Source: Acidobacteriota bacterium
GTDB taxonomy: Bacteria; Acidobacteriota; Blastocatellia; Pyrinomonadales; Pyrinomonadaceae
NCBI GenBank assembly: GCA_020199775.1
Contig: JAIVJZ010000003.1
Coordinates: 79,113-143,112, forward strand
DNA length: 64,000 nt
Reading direction: 5' to 3'
The position numbers were made by a program, and so were the translations under genes. Of this stretch, positions 16,119 through 53,210 are shown piece by piece (positions within the stretch are counted from its first letter, which is position 1; every line of letters starts with the position of its first letter). The notes beneath the pieces were generated by a model, which did not search any database, was not told where the DNA came from, and saw only the letters and a program-made list of their open reading frames with translations.

Positions 16119-16130
16119 AGTTTGGGAAAC

Positions 16131-16214
16131 GATGAACGCGGAACGATGAAGGAGGAACGCGGAACGATGAACTGTAAAGATATGTTGCTTTTACTTCATC
16201 GTTCCGCGTTCATC
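16131..16214. repeat. Word palindrome copy 3, 21-bp perfect outer stem
   Basis: GATGAACGCGGAACGATGAAG (16131-16151) / reverse complement (16194-16214); extra word copy inside. Confidence 0.95.
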
Positions 16215-16222
16215 GTTCATCC

Positions 16223-19767: not shown

Positions 19768-20178
19768 CTATTCGCCGCCGGTCTTCGACGTGAGACGGCG
19801 GAGAAGATTCTTCAACTGGTAAGGGTCTTCGAGATACGTCACCCAGTCGTTGTCGCCTACTTTCACGTCCTTACCTTCCAACTCCACGCCGTACTTTTCG
19901 GCGATGACGACGAGCGGCGTGTGCCCGTCATACTTCGCATATGTTCGGAGACGACGCCCGATTTGCAAAACTTCGTCGGTCGTCTTGCCGACCAGATTAA
20001 TCAGCAGCAGATCGGCCTGAACGACGCCGTCGCCGAGTCGTTCCTGCGCGTCCTCTTCGTCCAACGCCAGCAAGACACGATAGCCGTAATTTTTCAGATT
20101 CCCCTTCAAGATGGGGCGCGTCTCGTCGTCCTCTTCGACGAGAAAAATGGTCGGCTGATTCCCCTGATCGTCACTCAT
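19768..20178 (-). CDS. Degenerate response-regulator receiver protein
   Basis: FLVEEDDETRPILKGNLKNYGYRVLLA start typical of REC; phospho-acceptor and Lys positions substituted. Confidence 0.75.
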   Translation of the reverse strand: MSDDQGNQPTIFLVEEDDETRPILKGNLKNYGYRVLLALDEEDAQERLGDGVVQADLLLINLVGKTTDEVLQIGRRLRTYAKYDGHTPLVVIAEKYGVELEGKDVKVGDNDWVTYLEDPYQLKNLLRRLTSKTGGE

Positions 20179-20388
20179 CCACGGTGCCTCCTTATGATAA
20201 ACGGAAATAATGCCATATTGAAGGTCGCCGGTATGTCCGGTTTAGGACAGACGCCGCCCCGTCAAATACAGCCACGGCCACATCGCCCTCTTTGACCGCG
20301 AAAAACCGGAAGCCGATTCGTGCGAACGTTGCGCGATTGTGAAAAATGGACTTCATCGTCCGCACGCGTAGACGCTCCACGGCGCGAC

Positions 20389-21792
20389 TCATACCGCCCC
20401 GCCCTTTGTCCCAACCAACTCCGCGGCCGCCGCTTGCGCCTCTTCGAGTGTGCGCACGCGGCCGTCCAGTTGCATCTCGTAGACGGCGCGCGTGATTTCG
20501 CCGATGCGCGGCGAGGGCGCGAGCCCCATCGCCAGCAGATGCCGCCCCAACAGCAGGGGCGCGGGCGGGCGCGTCTCCACCGCCAACTCGCGCGCCCGCG
20601 CGATGAACCACTCCTGCGGCACGGCGTCGAACCAACGCTCGCGCGGAACCCAGGGGGCGTTGCGCCCGAGCGTGTCGGCACGCGCCACGCGGTACAGCAG
20701 GTCGAGTTCGCAACGGCGCGCGAGGCGGCGGAACGCGCCCTCCGAAACTTCCTCGCGCTTGAGGTAAAACTCGCCCGGCTTCAAATGCGCCCGCACGAGT
20801 TCGACCACCTGCGCGCGCACGTCGTAACCGTCGAGCGTGTGGATTTTCAGACGTTCCAGAAACGCTACGGTCGGCGCGACGCCCGCCTCGTCGTGCCCGC
20901 GCGAGCGCGTGCGACCTTCGACAAAGGCGGTCGTCGCGGGCTTGCCGAAGTCGTGACACAGCGCGGCCAGCATCACCGTCATCGCCTTCGCGTAAGGCAG
21001 GTCGTCAATCAACTCGCGCGCGCGGTCGAGGGTGAGCCATGTGTGCACGTCAACGTCTCCTTCCGGGTGCCAGTCGTATTCCTGCGGCACGCCGGAGAGG
21101 GCTTGAATTTCGGGGAAGAGTTGCGGCGTGGCGTTCAACTTCGCGAGCCACCGGAATCCGACCGAAGGCCGCGTCGCGCCGAGGAGCAACTTTTCCAACT
21201 CGCCCCAGACGCGCTCGGCGGGCAAGTCCGACAGGTCAATCGCGCGGCACAACTCGACCGTCTCCGGCTCGATGTCAAACTCGAAACGCGCCGCCAGTTG
21301 CGCCGCGCGCAGCACGCGCAGGGAGTCTTCGGCGAACGTCTCGTGCGAGACGGCGCGCAAGAGTCGGCGTTCGAGATCGGCGCGGCCTTCGTAGGGATCG
21401 AGCACCTCGCCCGTGAGCGGGTCTTGGAGGATGGCGTTGATGCGGAAGTCGCGTCGGCGCGCGGCCTCGGCCACGGTCATGTGCGGGTCGCCTTCGATGA
21501 CGAAACCGCGATGGCCGCGCCCCTGCTTGCGCTCGCGGCGCGGGAGCGACACGTCCAAGTCGTGGCCGAGTTTGTAGACCGTGAACGCCTCGCCGACGGC
21601 GTCCACGCGGCCGAACTGTTCCAGCAGCGCGCGCAGAAGCGCGGGTTCGACGCCGTAGACTTCCACGTCCCAATCCTTCGGCTCGCGCCCCGCGAGCGCG
21701 TCGCGCACGCAACCGCCGACGAGCAGCGCTCGGCCTCCCGCCTCACGGACGGCAGCCGCCAGCGCGCGAATTTTAGAAGGAACTTTACGCAT
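20389..21792 (-). CDS. cca: CCA tRNA nucleotidyltransferase / HD-domain protein
   Basis: LLVGGCVRDALAGREPKDWDVEVYG; RRDFRINAI; HDFGKP. Confidence 0.9.
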   Translation of the reverse strand: MRKVPSKIRALAAAVREAGGRALLVGGCVRDALAGREPKDWDVEVYGVEPALLRALLEQFGRVDAVGEAFTVYKLGHDLDVSLPRRERKQGRGHRGFVIEGDPHMTVAEAARRRDFRINAILQDPLTGEVLDPYEGRADLERRLLRAVSHETFAEDSLRVLRAAQLAARFEFDIEPETVELCRAIDLSDLPAERVWGELEKLLLGATRPSVGFRWLAKLNATPQLFPEIQALSGVPQEYDWHPEGDVDVHTWLTLDRARELIDDLPYAKAMTVMLAALCHDFGKPATTAFVEGRTRSRGHDEAGVAPTVAFLERLKIHTLDGYDVRAQVVELVRAHLKPGEFYLKREEVSEGAFRRLARRCELDLLYRVARADTLGRNAPWVPRERWFDAVPQEWFIARARELAVETRPPAPLLLGRHLLAMGLAPSPRIGEITRAVYEMQLDGRVRTLEEAQAAAAELVGTKGGAV

Positions 21793-21832
21793 CGAGTGAA
21801 AGGCGTCGCGCGTCTGCAAAACTACTTCTGTC

Positions 21833-21898
21833 TTCCTTTGCGACTTTGCGCCTTTGCGAGAAATTTATCTCACGCAAAGGCGCAAAGTCGCAAAGGAA
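21833..21898. repeat. Word palindrome (CGCAAAG words), 26-bp perfect stem
   Basis: TTCCTTTGCGACTTTGCGCCTTTGCG (21833-21858) / reverse complement (21873-21898). Confidence 0.95.
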
Positions 21899-21915
21899 AG
21901 CGAAAAGGTAGAAGG

Positions 21916-22374
21916 TCAGCTTTCGGGCTGTGGGTTAACGGGCGCGCCGACTTCATCATCATCGTCGTCATCATCCTCGTCAAAGTCGTCTGCGCCAAAC
22001 TCGTCGCCGGTTTCGTCATCGTCCTCGTCGCCGACGATGACTTGCAGGCCGCGCGTGGAGGGCAGGCAACTGATTACCTGCGCGCGTTCGATGCGTGAGA
22101 GGTTGCCGCCGTTGGCGTGCCAGAGTTTGACCCAGAAGGTGCGCGTCCGTGTGTGAATGGCGAAGGTCGAGCCGTCGAGCATGACGGGGACAAGTTCGGC
22201 GATTGTGCCCGCGCGCAAAGTTTCCAGCAGTTCGGGGATGAACGGCCGCACGTTGTCGAACTGCACGACGAGCGCGCCCTCTTCGACTTCGGCGGGCGGC
22301 AACTCGACCGGCCCGTCCGCTTCCAACAGCAGCCGCGCGTCCGTGCGCTGATTGTTTAGTTTCCTGATAGCCAT
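21916..22374 (-). CDS. Hypothetical protein with strongly acidic C-terminal tail
   Basis: 152 aa; tail DEDDDETGDEFGADDFDEDDDDDDDEV. Confidence 0.75.
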   Translation of the reverse strand: MAIRKLNNQRTDARLLLEADGPVELPPAEVEEGALVVQFDNVRPFIPELLETLRAGTIAELVPVMLDGSTFAIHTRTRTFWVKLWHANGGNLSRIERAQVISCLPSTRGLQVIVGDEDDDETGDEFGADDFDEDDDDDDDEVGAPVNPQPES

Positions 22375-22378
22375 ATTT

Positions 22379-22432
22379 CATGAATCGTAAATCGTAAATA
22401 GAAAGACCTGCTTTCATCTATTTATGATTCAC
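22379..22432. repeat. Word palindrome (AATCGTAAATCG words), imperfect
   Basis: TGAATCGTAAATCGTAAATAG ... CTATTTATGATTCA abutting glyS stop. Confidence 0.75.
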
Positions 22433-23862
22433 TACCTGCTAAGCAGACGTGTCTGCAAGTGCTGTTGCAGGTCTGAGACTTTGACGCGTTCCTGCTCCCA
22501 CGTGTCGCGGTCGCGCACGGTGACGGCCTCGTCTTCGAGCGACTGGTGATCCACGGTGACGCAGAAGGGCGTGCCGATCTCGTCCTGCCGCGCGTAGAGT
22601 TTGCCGATGCCGCCCGTGTCGTCGTAGACGGCGCGCACGACGGGCTGCATGCTGCGCTTGATGGCCTTCGCCATGCCGACGATCTCCGGCTTGTTTTTGG
22701 CGAGCGGCAGGATCGCCACTTTGACGGGGGCGAGTTCGGGATGAAGTTTCAGGACGACGCGCATCTCGCCTTTCTCCGTCGTGCGCTCGGAATAGGCGTC
22801 CATCAGGAACGCGAGGACGGAGCGGTTGACGCCCGCCGCCGGTTCGATGACGTAAGGGTAGTAACGCTCCTTGCGTGCCTCGTCGAAATAAGAGAGGTCT
22901 TCGGTCGAGTCGGGGTTGACGCGTTTGCCTTCCGCATCCAGAGGGTTCTTTGAATGCGCGCGCAGGTCGAAGTCCGTGCGGTTGGCGATGCCCATCAGTT
23001 CATCCCAGTGCTTCTCTTCGTCGGTACGCTCGGGGAAGAAGCGATAGTGGATGTCCACGGTGCGCTTGGCGTAGTGCGCGAGTTCCTCCTTGGGCTGCTC
23101 GTAGAGGCGCAGGTTGTCGCGGCTGAGTCCGAGCGACGCGTACCAGTTGTAACAGTTGTCGATCCACTCCTGATGCGCCGTCTCGTCTTCGCCGGGGCGC
23201 ACAAAGTATTCCATCTCCATCTGCTCGAACTCGCGAGTGCGGAAGATGAAGTTGCCGGGCGTCACTTCGTTGCGGAACGATTTCCCGATCTGCGCGATGC
23301 CGAACGGCACTTTACGCCGCATCGTCTGCTGCACGAGATGAAAATTGATGAAGATGCCCTGCGCCGTCTCAGGACGCAGGTAGGCGAGCGCGGCCGGGTC
23401 GTCTTCCGCCGACGCCGCGCCGAGTTGCGTGCGAAACATGAGATTGAAGGGGCGCGGTTCGGTCAGATTAGTCGAGCCGCAGTTAGGGCACTTGACCGCC
23501 TTGTCGCGAATCAACGTCGTGATGTCGCCGCCTTCCGCCGCCTGTGGGATGTCGAGTTTGTCGGCGCGTAGACGTGCGTTGCACTCGCGGCAATCGACGA
23601 GCGGGTCGCTGAACGTGTCCTCGTGCCCCGAATATTTCCAGACAGAGCGATTGAGGATGATCGAGGAATCGAGCCCCTCCATATCGTCGCGCTCGTAGAC
23701 CATCCAACGCCACCACGCGCGCTTGACGTTGTTGCAGAGTTCGACGCCGAGCGGGCCGTAGTCCCACGCGCTCCCCAGACCGCCGTAAATCTCCGACGAG
23801 GGGAAGACGAAGCCGCGCCGCTTCGCCAGACTGACTATCGTTTCGATGTTCGGTGCAGACAA
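22432..23862 (-). CDS. glyS: Glycyl-tRNA synthetase (dimeric type)
   Basis: RRGFVFPSSEIYGGLGSAWDYGPLG, RPETAQGIF, FRNEVTPGNFIFRTREFEQMEMEYF; TTG start. Confidence 0.95.
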   Translation of the reverse strand: MSAPNIETIVSLAKRRGFVFPSSEIYGGLGSAWDYGPLGVELCNNVKRAWWRWMVYERDDMEGLDSSIILNRSVWKYSGHEDTFSDPLVDCRECNARLRADKLDIPQAAEGGDITTLIRDKAVKCPNCGSTNLTEPRPFNLMFRTQLGAASAEDDPAALAYLRPETAQGIFINFHLVQQTMRRKVPFGIAQIGKSFRNEVTPGNFIFRTREFEQMEMEYFVRPGEDETAHQEWIDNCYNWYASLGLSRDNLRLYEQPKEELAHYAKRTVDIHYRFFPERTDEEKHWDELMGIANRTDFDLRAHSKNPLDAEGKRVNPDSTEDLSYFDEARKERYYPYVIEPAAGVNRSVLAFLMDAYSERTTEKGEMRVVLKLHPELAPVKVAILPLAKNKPEIVGMAKAIKRSMQPVVRAVYDDTGGIGKLYARQDEIGTPFCVTVDHQSLEDEAVTVRDRDTWEQERVKVSDLQQHLQTRLLSR

Positions 23863-23872
23863 TTATTGACCT

Positions 23873-23952
23873 CCGTAAATCGTGAATCGTAAATCGTGAA
23901 TAGAAGTAAATCGGGTTTTCTCTATTCACGATTTACGATTCACGATTTACGG
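23873..23952. repeat. Word palindrome (AATCGTGAATCG words), 31-bp perfect stem
   Basis: CCGTAAATCGTGAATCGTAAATCGTGAATAG (23873-23903) / exact reverse complement (23922-23952). Confidence 0.97.
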
Positions 23953-24114
23953 CCTTTCGCGATTTACGACGCATGTTAGCAGCCGCGCCCCGCAAATGAA
24001 AAGAAGAGAGAAACGCGCTCGTCGCTTTCGGCGGCGCGTCCCTCTCTTCCGCGAATGAGACTGTCTGAAAACTTCTCTAACGTTATACTTGGCGTTACCT
24101 GGCGTTACTGGCCG

Positions 24115-24288
24115 CTACTTGCTGGCCGGTGCGCTCGGCGTGCCGACGTTCACGTCAACTTTCGTCGTCTTGCCGCCGCCGAAGAGCCGCCCGCCGAAGA
24201 GCACGAGCGCGAGCACGATCACGATTATGAAAATCACCAAAACGGCCACCACGCCGGTGCTGCCGCTGCCGCCATCACCATCACCCAT
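24115..24288 (-). CDS. Small single-TM hypothetical protein
   Basis: [41 protein letters not shown]... with AAGGAGG RBS. Confidence 0.6.
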
Positions 24289-24394
24289 AAAATGATCCTC
24301 CTTCAGAGTTCTCTCTGGTTTATCAAAGACGTTGAAATGCACTGTTGTCTGACGGGGGAAACTCGCAGGCTCTAGTTATCACACAACTTTTGAA

Positions 24395-24473
24395 GTGACA
24401 AGCAACAAGTGACGGGTGACGGGTCAAAACAACTTTGCTTCTGACCTGTCACCCGTCACTCGTTACCTGTCGC
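24395..24473. repeat. Word palindrome (GACGGGTGACGGGT words)
   Basis: AGTGACGGGTGACGGGTCA ... TGACCTGTCACCCGTCACT. Confidence 0.85.
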
Positions 24474-24478
24474 CAACT

Positions 24479-25480
24479 TTACCGTGGCCTGGCTTGCGGG
24501 GGCGTCGCGCCCTGCGGGACAAGCCACAGTTCGAACGAATCGACCTCGCGCGTGCCGCCGTTGACGACCACCACGCGGCTCGCGTCAATGTTGCGCGTGT
24601 TGACGAGATACTGGCGGCTGCGTTCGCCGAGTTGAGTGGCGCGATTGGCGCGGCTGCGCCGTCCGCTGTAGACGATGATGTAGCCTTGAGAACCGGGCTC
24701 GCCCTGCAAAGCCACCGCGAAGTTGTCGAGGTTGGCCTTGTCTTCGTTGAAGGAGATGACCGGGAACTCGGCGAAACTCTTCGGCGCGACGGGCGGCAAC
24801 GCGGCGGGCGTAACGCCGGTCATGGCCTGAGCGCGCTGGCGGCACGACTGGTCGCCCGAGCCGTCGTCCACGACGAGGATGGCCGTGACGCGCTGGCTGC
24901 CGATGCCGGTCGTGTCCACTGTAATGGTGGGCGTGCCCGCGCCGCTGACGATGCGCGCGCTCGGCGGGCTGATCGTCCACGTGTAATTGAGGCCGGACTG
25001 CCCTGCGTAGTTCACGTCGGAACTGAAAGTGATAATGTCGCCCTCGCGCACGCTCGCCGGGGCGGAGATGTTGACCGGGTACGGGCAAGGCGATTTGACG
25101 ATGGCCGGGCGTTCGATGCTGATCGTCTTCGGTCGCCAGTTGAGCGTGATGCACTGCTTCTTGTTGGCGGCGATGTCGAAATCGCGCACCCAGCGCGTGT
25201 TGTTCGGGAATTGGATTTCAACCGTGTGCCGCCCGGGTTCGAGTTCGTACAACTGAACGGTCGGGCTCGTCGTGCCGACCGCGCGCCCGTCAATCAGGAG
25301 CGGGTAGCCGGCGGGCGTGGTCGAAACTTCAATGCGCCCGTTTTGCGTCGCCCGCCCGTTCTGCGCGTAGACGCTCGCGCCCGACAGGCTGGCCGAGACG
25401 AGCATGAGGGCACATGCGAGTAAAGGTAATTTGAAGCGGGTGGGGACGGCGGCGTTGATCGACGCTATGTGTCTCGACAT
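24479..25480 (-). CDS. Secreted protein with PEGA-like and Ig/PKD-like segments, OmpA-like C-terminus
   Basis: Signal peptide; IEVSTTPAGYPLLIDGRAVGTTSP; RANRATQLGERSRQYLVNTRNIDASRV. Confidence 0.7.
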   Translation of the reverse strand: MSRHIASINAAVPTRFKLPLLACALMLVSASLSGASVYAQNGRATQNGRIEVSTTPAGYPLLIDGRAVGTTSPTVQLYELEPGRHTVEIQFPNNTRWVRDFDIAANKKQCITLNWRPKTISIERPAIVKSPCPYPVNISAPASVREGDIITFSSDVNYAGQSGLNYTWTISPPSARIVSGAGTPTITVDTTGIGSQRVTAILVVDDGSGDQSCRQRAQAMTGVTPAALPPVAPKSFAEFPVISFNEDKANLDNFAVALQGEPGSQGYIIVYSGRRSRANRATQLGERSRQYLVNTRNIDASRVVVVNGGTREVDSFELWLVPQGATPPQARPR

Positions 25481-25484
25481 GACC

Positions 25485-26147
25485 TTAGGCCTCCCTCACA
25501 TCCAGAGCTTCGTCGTTCTTGTCGCCGGAGCGCGCGGCGCGTCGGCGGCGTGCGCCCGCGCCGAGGGCGGCGAGTCCGCTGCCGAGCAGCAGGAGCGTGG
25601 CCGGTTCGGGTATTTGCGGCGTGGGCGGCGTCGGCGTCGGGATAATGTCTATCGGCGGAATGTCGCCGTCGTCGCCGCCGAGGAACAGGAGCGGGATGCC
25701 CGCCAAAGCCAGAAACGGCAGTTTCGGGAAGCCGCCGCCGGGCAAGCCCGGAATTTCGCCGCAGTCGCAGATCGTGCCCTGGATGTCGCCGAGTTCGATG
25801 GTCTCAACCTGGACGGAGCCGGGTTGCTGCACGGCGACGGTCGTACCGGTGATACCGGTGTCCACGCTGCCCGTGGGGGCTGTGCCGGTCGGCGTCTGTG
25901 CGGTTCCGGGGTTCTGTGAACTACTACCGGCGGAAGAAATCTGCCTGTCCCGTGAATTGGCCGTGCCGCCGTTTTGCTGCGTGACGGAGCGGAGGCGGAG
26001 GTCTATGGTTTGGCGACCACTCTGGCCGTTAACTGTCGCTAGCGCAATCACATCGCCGAAACTGATCGTGCCTGCTTGCGCCGGCACGGCGGCTATGAGT
26101 AAGACGCTGAGCATCAGAGCGGCTGGGCGTATGGCTTGATGCTTCAT
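25485..26147 (-). CDS. PEP-CTERM-type secreted protein
   Basis: N-terminal signal peptide; C-terminal IPEPATLLLLGSGLAALGAGARRRRAAR (PEP motif, TM, Arg cluster). Confidence 0.85.
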   Translation of the reverse strand: MKHQAIRPAALMLSVLLIAAVPAQAGTISFGDVIALATVNGQSGRQTIDLRLRSVTQQNGGTANSRDRQISSAGSSSQNPGTAQTPTGTAPTGSVDTGITGTTVAVQQPGSVQVETIELGDIQGTICDCGEIPGLPGGGFPKLPFLALAGIPLLFLGGDDGDIPPIDIIPTPTPPTPQIPEPATLLLLGSGLAALGAGARRRRAARSGDKNDEALDVREA

Positions 26148-26341
26148 CGTGTGTGGTCGTCCTCCCTTGGCTAACTGTAACTGCTGCATAATAATGACTT
26201 TTTTAGATGCGACGCCCTGCGGAAACCCTTGAAAAAATCCGCTGTGGGGGCGTTTTCATTAAAAGGAAAGACACAATAGCCCAGCTCTTCCAATTTTGCG
26301 AGACAATAATCCGGCCTAAATGTATGTGTTAGAACAAAAAA

Positions 26342-26368
26342 GGGGCTTGCACGGCTGGTGCAAGCCCC
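26342..26368 (-). terminator. Rho-independent terminator of pnp
   Basis: GGGGCTTGCAC hairpin followed by T-run on minus strand. Confidence 0.9.
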
Positions 26369-26404
26369 GGAGGTAAAACCGGACGGATAAGAGCGGGCGG
26401 CCGC

Positions 26405-28552
26405 CTACTCGTCGTCGCCCTGAGGTTCGTGGCCGTTGCCCCCCGCCTTCTGCTGTTCGTCGCGCAGGATGGACTTGCGTGAGAGCTTGATCTTGTTGCC
26501 CTCCTTGCCGATGCACTTGACCATGATCTGCTGCCCTTCCTTGAGTTCGTCGCGCACGTCGCGGACGCGGTGGTTGGCGATCTCGGAGATGTGCAAGAGG
26601 CCGTCCGTGCCGGGGAAGATTTCGACGAACGCGCCGAAATCGACGATGCGCGAGACCGTGCCGACGTAGGTTTCGCCGATCTCGGCCTCGGCCGTCAAAC
26701 CGCGTATGCGATCCACTGCGGCCTGCGCCGCCTCTCTGTCGGCGGTGGCAATCGAGACCGTGCCGTCGTCCTCCACGTCGATCTTCGCGCCCGTCTCTTC
26801 GACGATGGAGCGGATGATCTTGCCGCCCGGCCCGATCACGTCGCGAATCTTATCCGGGTTGATCTTGATTTGGATGATGCGTGGCGCGTATTCCGACATC
26901 TCCTCGCGCGGCGCGTTGATGGCCTGCTCCATCGCGGCGAGGATGTGCAGGCGGCCTTTGCGCGCCTGTTCCAGAGCTTCTTGCAGGATCATGGCGTTGA
27001 TGCCGCCGATCTTGATGTCCATCTGGAGGGCGGTGATGCCGTCTTTCGTGCCCGCGACTTTGAAGTCCATGTCGCCGTAGTGGTCTTCCGCGCCCGCGAT
27101 GTCCGAGAGGATCGCGTACTTGTTGCCTTCCATCACGAGCCCCATCGCGACGCCCGCGACCGGCGACTTGATCGGCACGCCCGCGTCCATCATCGAGAGG
27201 CTGCCGCCGCAGACGGTCGCCATCGAGCTCGATCCGTTCGACTCGGTGATGTCCGAGACGATACGCAGCGAATACGGGAACTCGCTCTCCTGCGGCAAGA
27301 CGGGTTCGAGCGCGCGACGCGCGAGCGCGCCGTGGCCGATCTCGCGGCGGCTGGTCGAGCCGAAGCGGCCGACCTCGCCGACCGAGAAGGACGGGAAGTT
27401 GTAATGCAGCAGGAAGCGGCGTTTGATCTCGCCCGTCTCCAGATCGTCCATGAACTGCTCGTCCTCTTTCGTCCCGAGCGTGGTGGTGACGATGGCCTGC
27501 GTCTCGCCGCGCGTAAAGAGCGACGAGCCGTGGACGCGCGGCAGCCAGCCGACTTCGCATGTGATCGGGCGAATTTCGGAGAAGCGGCGGCCGTCCGGGC
27601 GGCGGCGTTTGTCGAGGATGTCGTCGCGGAAAATCTTCTCTTTCAGTTGGTCGAAAATCTTCTTCGCCATCGTGCGCTGTTCGGGCGCGTCGGCCGGGTA
27701 GGATTCGACGACCTCTTTCTTGAGCGCGTCAACCGTGGCGTAGCTCGTCAGTTTGTCCTGCGCCGAGGTGTCGAGCCCGGCGCGCAGTTTGTCCGTGTAG
27801 TTGCGCTCGATCTCGCCCGACATCTCTTCGCTCAGGACGGGCGGCGTGACTTCGCGCTTCTGGATTTCGAGCGCCTTGTAGAGTTCCTTCTGCCAGCGGC
27901 AGAGGCGGTTGATCTCTTTGTGCGCGAGCATCAGGGCTTCGACCATGATCGCTTCCGAGACTTCCTTCGCGCCCGACTCGACCATCACGATGGCCTCTTC
28001 CGTGCCCGCCACGATCAGGTTCAAACTCGACTCGCGCACTTCGTCGTAAGTCGGGTTGATGATGTAGCGGCCTTCGATGAGGCCGACGCGCACGCCCGCA
28101 ATCGGCTGCGGGAACGGGATGTCCGACAGGTAGAGCGCGCACGACGCGCCCGTGATGGCGATCACGTCGGGGTCGTTTTCGGCGTCGGCCGAGATGACGG
28201 AGGCGATGACCTGCGTTTCGTTGCGATAGCCTTCGGTGAAGAGCGGGCGGCAGGGGCGGTCGATGAGGCGGCTGGTCAGGACTTCTTTTTCGCCGGGGCG
28301 GCCTTCGCGCCGGAAGTAGTTGCCGGGGATGCGACCGGCCGCGTAGTTGTGCTCGCGGTATTCGACCGTGAGCGGGAAGAAGTCTATGCCTTCACGCGGG
28401 CTGTTCGCGCCGACGGCGGCGACCAACAGCATCGTGTCGCCGTAGCTGATGACGACCGAGCCGTCGGCCTGCTTGGCGACGCGCCCGGTCTCGACGGTCA
28501 GGTCGCGACCGCCGAGTTTGATAGTTTCTTTCAAATATTTTTTCACTGGCAT
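26405..28552 (-). CDS. pnp: Polynucleotide phosphorylase
   Basis: RNase PH domains, KH (IGPGGKIIRSI) and S1 domain; AAGGAG RBS before ATG. Confidence 0.97.
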   Translation of the reverse strand: MPVKKYLKETIKLGGRDLTVETGRVAKQADGSVVISYGDTMLLVAAVGANSPREGIDFFPLTVEYREHNYAAGRIPGNYFRREGRPGEKEVLTSRLIDRPCRPLFTEGYRNETQVIASVISADAENDPDVIAITGASCALYLSDIPFPQPIAGVRVGLIEGRYIINPTYDEVRESSLNLIVAGTEEAIVMVESGAKEVSEAIMVEALMLAHKEINRLCRWQKELYKALEIQKREVTPPVLSEEMSGEIERNYTDKLRAGLDTSAQDKLTSYATVDALKKEVVESYPADAPEQRTMAKKIFDQLKEKIFRDDILDKRRRPDGRRFSEIRPITCEVGWLPRVHGSSLFTRGETQAIVTTTLGTKEDEQFMDDLETGEIKRRFLLHYNFPSFSVGEVGRFGSTSRREIGHGALARRALEPVLPQESEFPYSLRIVSDITESNGSSSMATVCGGSLSMMDAGVPIKSPVAGVAMGLVMEGNKYAILSDIAGAEDHYGDMDFKVAGTKDGITALQMDIKIGGINAMILQEALEQARKGRLHILAAMEQAINAPREEMSEYAPRIIQIKINPDKIRDVIGPGGKIIRSIVEETGAKIDVEDDGTVSIATADREAAQAAVDRIRGLTAEAEIGETYVGTVSRIVDFGAFVEIFPGTDGLLHISEIANHRVRDVRDELKEGQQIMVKCIGKEGNKIKLSRKSILRDEQQKAGGNGHEPQGDDE

Positions 28553-30284: not shown

Positions 30285-30505
30285 TAGCCTTAGCCCCGTT
30301 AGGGGCGACAGATAGTAGCCAACGGCGCAAGCCGTGGGGAATTGCCGCAACCCCGAGATAATCGAAGCCCCGTCAGGGGCGAAAGATATTCGATCTCGAA
30401 TATCTTTCGCCCCTGACGGGGCTTCTCAATTTTATCTTCCGCTTGATCCAACGGCTTGCGCCGTGGGCTATAAATCTTCCGCCCCTGACGGGGCTTCGGA
30501 ATACA
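30285..30505. repeat. Nested palindromic intergenic repeat (GCCCCGTCAGGGGCG family)
   Basis: GCCCCGTTAGGGGCG, CCAACGGCGCAAGCCGTGGG, AAGCCCCGTCAGGGGCGAAAGATATTCGA and inverse copies. Confidence 0.9.
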
Positions 30506-34573: not shown

Positions 34574-34642
34574 GAAGTCGGAACGATGAACGATGAAGTG
34601 AAGACAAGTTGCTTTTACTTCATCGTTCATCGTTCCGACTTC
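34574..34642. repeat. Word palindrome copy 4, 26-bp perfect stem
   Basis: GAAGTCGGAACGATGAACGATGAAGT (34574-34599) / exact reverse complement (34617-34642). Confidence 0.96.
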
Positions 34643-39357: not shown

Positions 39358-39366
39358 AAAAAAAAT

Positions 39367-39441
39367 GATGAACGCGGAACGATGAACGATGAAGTAAAAG
39401 CAACTTGCCTTTCATTCATCGTTCATCGTTCCGCGTTCATC
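39367..39441. repeat. Word palindrome copy 5, 27-bp perfect stem
   Basis: GATGAACGCGGAACGATGAACGATGAA (39367-39393) / exact reverse complement (39415-39441). Confidence 0.96.
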
Positions 39442-39449
39442 GTTTGTGA

Positions 39450-40744: not shown

Positions 40745-40850
40745 GTTTCAAGTTTCAGGTTTCAAGTTAAAAACAAAACCACAATCCCGAACTTTCAAGT
40801 TAAAGGCCGCACACCCTCAGACCTGAAACTTGAAACCTGAAACTTGAAAC
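40745..40850. repeat. Word palindrome (GTTTCAAGTTTCAGG words), 22-bp perfect stem, 62-nt loop
   Basis: GTTTCAAGTTTCAGGTTTCAAG (40745-40766) / reverse complement (40829-40850). Confidence 0.93.
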
Positions 40851-44557: not shown

Positions 44558-44579
44558 GTCTTTGAAACGATGAACCATG

Positions 44580-44638
44580 AACGATGAACGATGAATAGAA
44601 AACACCTGCTTGAGTTTTTCTATTCATCGTTCATCGTT
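44580..44638. repeat. Word palindrome copy 6, 19-bp perfect stem
   Basis: AACGATGAACGATGAATAG (44580-44598) / reverse complement (44620-44638). Confidence 0.93.
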
Positions 44639-44644
44639 CCGCGT

Positions 44645-53117: not shown

Positions 53118-53210
53118 CTCAAATGATGAAGTAGGAACGCGGAACGATGAACGGAAAGCCGGTCGCTTTTACTTCATCGTTCATCGTTCCGCGTTCATCG
53201 TTTCCTTTTC
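53118..53210. repeat. Word palindrome copy 7, overlaps kinase 3' end
   Basis: GAACGCGGAACGATGAACG (53135-53153) / reverse complement (53178-53196). Confidence 0.93.

Follow-up and report, generated by a model that had tools for sequence, protein, structure and literature searches.

Intergenic heptad-array hairpins in an acidobacterial genome may change their words by insertion into the loops of resident hairpins

The gap upstream of glyS in the acidobacterial genome studied here (G000) carries a perfect palindrome that would represent a single copy of a ~77-bp hairpin element, dispersed and non-autonomous, and its origin, together with the turnover of equivalent slots in sister species, is probably best accounted for by insertion of one hairpin into the loop of another and subsequent disappearance of the outer arms. 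Bacteria commonly carry short extragenic palindromes, and how these move and why they settle where they do is poorly understood. At the level of sequence, we document families of such palindromes, a rule of one per gap, nesting within loops, slots that are conserved with changed words and one outer palindrome that is partly eroded.

Results

Within the window (the whole stretch of DNA analysed, 64 kb), glyS encodes a glycyl-tRNA synthetase on the minus strand (22432–23862; 476 amino acids, TTG start), the closest relatives of which are acidobacteriotal, at 79% (a group 4 MAG) and 72% identity (a Pyrinomonadaceae MAG). The palindrome at 23873–23952 lies in the gap separating glyS from the upstream gene. 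A preliminary description of the locus was right to call it perfect, while its measurements of 31-bp arms and an 18-nt loop need correcting to 32 and 16 nt: the left arm (23873–23904) includes four CGTNAAT heptads (23874–23901; CGTAAAT, CGTGAAT, CGTAAAT and CGTGAAT) and AGA, the loop (23905–23920, AGTAAATCGGGTTTTC) is A-rich on its 5′ side and T-rich on its 3′ side like those of other copies, and the right arm (23921–23952) is the exact reverse complement of the left, the arms being 100% complementary. No inverted repeat as good was found in 400 kb of Markov (dinucleotide) shuffles. The TTG start lies 10 nt downstream of the palindrome, the stem foot of which supplies the first two Gs of the GGAGG Shine–Dalgarno sequence of glyS. 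No intrinsic terminator (GC-rich stem plus T run) was predicted at the element, and Rfam 15 families gave no match above the gathering score in 20001–28000.

A second, truncated CGTNAAT palindrome (22379–22434) lies in the gap between the glyS stop and the start of the next gene and pairs two heptads with three. It had been described as an imperfect relative abutting the stop codon, correctly so, since the final G of the glyS TAG is also the first base of its arm. RNA folding sets the two structures apart, as the upstream palindrome folds strongly (−56.7 kcal/mol, z = −8.56, equalled by 0 of 200 shuffles) and the downstream one weakly (−13.6 kcal/mol, z = −1.67). Derivation of both from one characterised mobile element had been named as the finding that would speak against a more general process; the two do belong to one word class, CGTNAAT, but no characterised element matches it. 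In one MAG (L014:2955–3030), the glyS-upstream palindrome lacks its right arm and the first ~67 glyS codons are also missing, either through a deletion linked to the hairpin or because the assembly is broken at this point.

The host genome, that of a soil bacterium, comprises 5.9 Mb in 77 contigs, 1.264 Mb of which were sampled for palindromes; this sample contains 242 strong inverted repeats, compared with none in shuffled sequence. Most are assignable to word classes: A, CGTNAAT; B, GAACGATG/GAACGCG; C, GTTTCAR; D, AAAGGGG; E, CTTTGCGY; F, AGTRAGC; G, TTGATTCA; H, GTGACRR; I, AGAGGTY; J, GGGATGA; and K, TCAGCYR. At least ten classes besides CGTNAAT have the same architecture of period-7 arms of ~28–31 nt around an A-rich/T-rich apex. 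The period is 7 in 165 of 187 periodic arms, and words point inward with fixed polarity in all classes, the exceptions being 5 of 16 in the 8-nt class E. The CGTNAAT element would be one of a super-group with a common architecture and many words.

Class A numbers 40–41 copies in the 1.264 Mb sampled, and BLAST placed it at no fewer than 40 sites across the whole of G000 (40 of 131 first-look candidates scored). Strict-pattern matches, which are tallied per register and therefore exceed copy number, amount for class A to 209 in G000, 62 in G001, 112 in G002, 183 in another genus, 53 in a further genus and 0–3 elsewhere, with 0 in most of the family. The corresponding figures in G000, G001 and G002 are 0, 169 and 194 for class H (61 in one other genus) and 172, 78 and 46 for class C (44 in one other genus). 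Where further members of the family were sampled, on a small scale, they had either the same architecture at lower density with further words or no palindromes. Classes C and H share, in G000, G002 and G017, a common apex, AAGTTAAA(A/G)GC..GCTTTTAACTT, with the variable R at the same position, and five class C slots of G000 are class H in G002; a single element may have been rewritten into both words. Distinct from these classes is a GC-rich palindrome family of G000, TGTAGGGGCMGGGCTTGTCCCTGCCCGC (C40:140275, 158293 and 671912; C11:6360 and 264534; and others), which lies between convergent genes in seven of nine cases and looks like a dispersed bidirectional terminator.

Further palindromes of the window belong to the classes RGTGACR (24397–24471, in the next gap, where G002 has the same class), CTTTGCGY (21833–21898, 8-nt words, the same class in G001) and GTTTCAR (40745–40850). 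Those of the GAACGATG class lie at 776–826 (short), 2586–2664, 16128–16217 (a CGTNAAT palindrome in the same gap of G002), 34574–34642 (a GTCAGTTGTC-class palindrome in the same gap of G001), 39363–39445, 44579–44639 and 53135–53196. A GC-rich inverted-repeat cluster at 30316–30498 (30364–30425, with partners to 30498) has no heptad periodicity and is separate from the heptad family.

Class A has a defined anatomy. The element measures ~77 bp, with exactly four plus four heptads in 31 of 53 copies and a 21-nt apex region between the arrays in 32 of 53; in transcript orientation it reads RAAAGC-[CGTNAAT]4-AGA-RAAAAC-nn-GTTTTC-TCT-[ATTNACG]4-GCTTTT, and its flanks are often AAAGC/GCTTT. The dispersed unit would comprise an AGA-AAAAC-nn-GTTTT-TCT apex flanked on each side by an arm of four CGTNAAT heptads. 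Arm-versus-arm mismatches affect 44 of 1,122 core positions and 66 of 187 variable bases, and the arms covary at heptad 2 (match 0.64 versus 0.34 shuffled) and weakly at other heptads. When two class H left arrays were compared between G001 and G002, which are ~93–97% identical around the compared slots, all six differences fell on variable positions. These heptad differences fit a reshuffling of variants within and between arms, not point mutation, and slippage within the arrays would be the means of reshuffling.

A core far more constant than the variable position might instead mark arrays bound by a protein, with one regulator or nucleoid protein per word class, as proposed for Geobacter metallireducens. 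In the available part of that source, inverted pairs of 3–5 (mostly 4) tandem 7/8-mer arrays occur in multiple copies and are read as regulator sites (PMC2700814). Its class 1–3 sites resemble our palindromes in being multi-copy, opposite-strand paired arrays of about four tandem 7/8-mers; they differ in words, phylum and a variable pair distance, and no slot turnover or nesting is described in that part of the paper (PMC2700814). We consider protein binding decidedly unlikely to explain the present arrays, as at least ten classes would require as many proteins, the class changes at orthologous gaps, palindromes are depleted between divergent genes, where promoters lie, and heptad reshuffling accounts for constant cores too.

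The preliminary description had proposed that different word classes share structure and stop-to-start placement, which both the clustering and the placement counts given below bear out, and because they do, no single word defines the phenomenon. Its suggestion of a general palindrome-forming process rather than one element family stands to that extent, but the words are not ad hoc, CGTNAAT being a defined dispersed element, and repeated insertion into existing hairpins seems a better description of the process than de novo formation. De novo palindromes, arising when replication folds back and switches template at tandem heptads, would agree with the perfect arms, the arm covariation at the variable base and the lack of a G·U preference. 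The copies nonetheless have a common word, four-heptad length, apex and fixed polarity, where random fold-backs would yield both polarities and many lengths, and we regard this origin as less probable still than protein binding.

Against gene calls that are approximate (a crude hexamer caller), all 187 palindromes assigned to word classes fall outside predicted genes; 141 occupy co-directional, 33 convergent and 12 divergent gaps, compared with 468, 71 and 107 background gaps of at least 90 nt, a depletion between divergent genes. For the three largest classes, the median distance is 2–5 nt from the stop to the element and 16–37 nt from the element to the next start. The occupied fraction is highest, ~0.40, at residual gap lengths of 0–40 nt and drops to 0.05 in long gaps. 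In about one third of co-directional class A copies the upstream stop codon falls within the initial heptads (offsets of around −5, −12 and −19). As 7 and 3 share no common factor, repeats of a TRA-containing heptad place stop codons in every frame, so that a class A landing at a gene end would be nearly harmless. Among class A copies on contigs C40 and C11 of G000, the upstream gene's stop is often the TGA/TAA of heptad 1, 2 or 3. On the 3′ side, many downstream genes start 4–11 nt past the hairpin with little or no Shine–Dalgarno sequence (for example, ..CACG-gcttttATG). A class A stem would place the upstream stop near the downstream start, a possible route to translational coupling.

This siting, just past stops and 10–20 nt ahead of starts, is one of several observations that would suit a function in RNA, whereby junctions need an intercistronic hairpin (for 3′-end protection, processing or translational coupling), any word serves and words drift; strong folds, slots conserved despite changed words and depletion between divergent genes are others. 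In transcript orientation, however, G·U mismatches show no excess over A·C mismatches (66 versus 59; 26 versus 20 in class A alone), and because G·U is not favoured, RNA pairing is not visibly selected. The glyS element is also without a terminator-like T tract, most sampled genomes of the same family have few or no palindromes, and drift fails to explain the exact nesting of one class within the loop of another. We therefore think a required RNA function unlikely, and the mRNA hairpin is perhaps better seen as tolerated than as required.

Exactly one palindrome was present in 202 of 203 occupied gaps, compared with 19 (uniform) or 34 ± 3.6 (length-weighted) gaps expected to hold two or more. 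Second palindromes occur nested within loops. Seven of the 12–13 CGTNAAT copies of G002 lie inside GTGACRA (class H) loops, the break point separating the AAAAC/AAGAC half of the class H loop from the GCTTTT half, and in 0.71 Mb of G002 class A was found within H seven times and H within A not once. When the three genomes were aligned at C40:428653, G001 and G002 proved to be nested (A within H) and G000 to have the inner A only. At C40:234601, G001 is nested in the same way; its inner A arms recur in G000, where one lone H heptad marks the outer boundary at the position of the full outer arm of G001. Related outer GAACGATG-type arms are present in both species at C40:401950, around inner palindromes that differ. 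Nested loops and the C40:234601 remnant are the reasons why words seem to turn over through loop insertion and loss of old arms; the order of nesting and erosion is polarised by few slots, and that of insertion by C40:234601 only. Complementary outer flanks, as a sign of an earlier host hairpin, showed overall no excess over shuffles, so the argument for earlier hosts draws on individual remnants only. Nested pairs might alternatively have been copied as one composite, or outer arms might have been added around an inner hairpin.

The comparison genomes G001 and G002 belong to the same genus as G000 at ~90% nucleotide identity. At the glyS-upstream slot, where G000 has CGTNAAT, both carry a palindrome of GGTGAAT/AGTAAAT words, and at the downstream slot a full RGTGACR palindrome stands in place of the CGTNAAT copy. 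The outer flank of the G000 upstream palindrome (23953–23971) contains one extra heptad-like piece, CGATTTACG, that lines up with GGTAAAT, the outer heptad of the palindrome in G001 and G002, and may be a remnant of an older palindrome. Among 123 orthologous gaps of G000 and G002, 25 were occupied in both, 13 in one (8/5) and 85 in neither (odds ratio 53, P = 1.6 × 10⁻¹⁴), slot statistics that derive mostly from one species pair and incomplete draft assemblies. Only 5 of the 25 co-occupied pairs share a 7-mer (20 share none), compared with 1.9 under random pairing. Earlier, stricter palindrome detectors left the trend of conserved slots with changed words unchanged. In long gaps, alignable flanks show the palindromes of both species to be at one position (as at C40:452094, 401300 and 406057). 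On reading, some gaps scored as occupied in one species only (C40:422131 and 450601 among them) turned out to contain a palindrome of another word that had escaped detection, and co-occupancy is therefore if anything understated. A limited number of gaps tolerating 80-bp inserts may alone raise co-occupancy; insertion tolerance of short operon gaps can explain part of it, though neither why doubles are so scarce nor why palindromes sit in loops. In G002 (C79), the ortholog of the gap at C40:558617 holds, compared with the G000 palindrome, a longer tract with a direct repeat of ~20–24 nt (ACTTTCGCGCTGCAAATTTGA-like), which is a repeat of a different type.

With respect to mechanism, no direct repeat of 3–9 nt flanks class A as a target-site duplication; a 2-nt flank match in 10 of 49 copies (P = 0.05) is explicable by the GC within the AAAGC/GCTTT flanks. 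No clean empty site was found among the compared slots, and no candidate for a mobilising enzyme emerged. Ku is absent from the palindrome-rich genomes G000–G003 and G014, and we rejected end-joining of hairpin fragments at nuclease-cut apices on that account.

Mobilisation by a RAYT (Y1, IS200/IS605) transposase, as for REP/REPIN-type elements, would be in keeping with extragenic, hairpin-forming, many-copy palindromes depleted between divergent genes. REP/BIME and REPINs are, in the portions of the sources available, likewise short extragenic palindromes or inverted doublets, mostly non-coding, with hundreds per genome (PMC3116915, PMC3733652). Unlike them, the heptad palindromes have heptad-array arms, occur one per gap, have no RAYT partner in rich genomes and lack a GTAG/CGTC foot, class A ending in AAAGC/GCTTT in transcript orientation. 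Y1_Tnp is absent from palindrome-rich G001 and G002, and G000 has two stop-interrupted matches (C44:50793–51140, L089; C3:43408–43758, L090) with no palindromes alongside, in assemblies that are 83–92% complete; family members with 9–16 Y1 genes are mostly palindrome-poor. The absence or interruption of Y1 in palindrome-rich genomes led us to reject RAYT/Y1 transposition, which we find scarcely credible here. As in MITEs, terminal inverted repeats are present, the heptad element being nearly all inverted repeat; the search for an autonomous partner covered the Y1_Tnp loci, and no hairpins lie next to these.

Among other known systems, IS1397, IS621 and ISKpn1 target REP palindromes, in the accessible part of the source, and so are alike as mobile DNA choosing a palindromic target (PMC1525189), but the incoming piece here is a gene-free 80-bp palindrome. 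The STRR heptanucleotide repeats of cyanobacteria and the GGGAATC/GGGGAYT heptamers of Xanthomonas and Nostoc are, as far as the available text goes, similarly intergenic, often of four units and sometimes inverted, but mostly single direct arrays for which that text describes no consistent apex hairpin, nesting or class change (PMC4692102). The palindromes of G000 do consist of tandem 7-mers that are intergenic and dispersed, as STRR-like repeats are, and class L (GTCAGTTGTC) resembles csR1.1 of Nostoc, which we note as a lead only. The word sequences themselves had no match in the literature searched, and the accessible portions of the Acidobacteria literature contained no description of such repeats. 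Word replacement at conserved slots and palindromes nested in palindrome loops are likewise undescribed in the available parts of the closest literature (PMC2700814, PMC4692102, PMC3116915, PMC3733652, PMC1525189).

Discussion

Under loop insertion, elements would persist one per stop-to-start gap, and a newcomer would usually enter the loop (apex) of the resident hairpin, giving a nested palindrome from which the old outer arms would then be lost, so that a slot would retain a hairpin while its word changes with time. The direction would be insertion into loops, not addition of arms from outside, and an active copying process would be at work. We advance only tentatively the wider proposal of a hairpin exchange operating without a transposase gene, RAYT or clear target duplication, in which elements of many words enter resident loops and replace the residents, exactly one hairpin is kept per junction and the genome's vocabulary of words is replaced from one sister species to the next.

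Taken together, the nesting, the orthologous slots and the changes of word would provide a readable record of turnover, in which the loops of hairpins serve as landing sites and the one-hairpin-per-gap rule is measurable. A conserved intergenic hairpin need not mean a conserved sequence, which matters for structure-based calling of regulatory RNAs, and what copies such hairpins is a directly testable question in a culturable relative.
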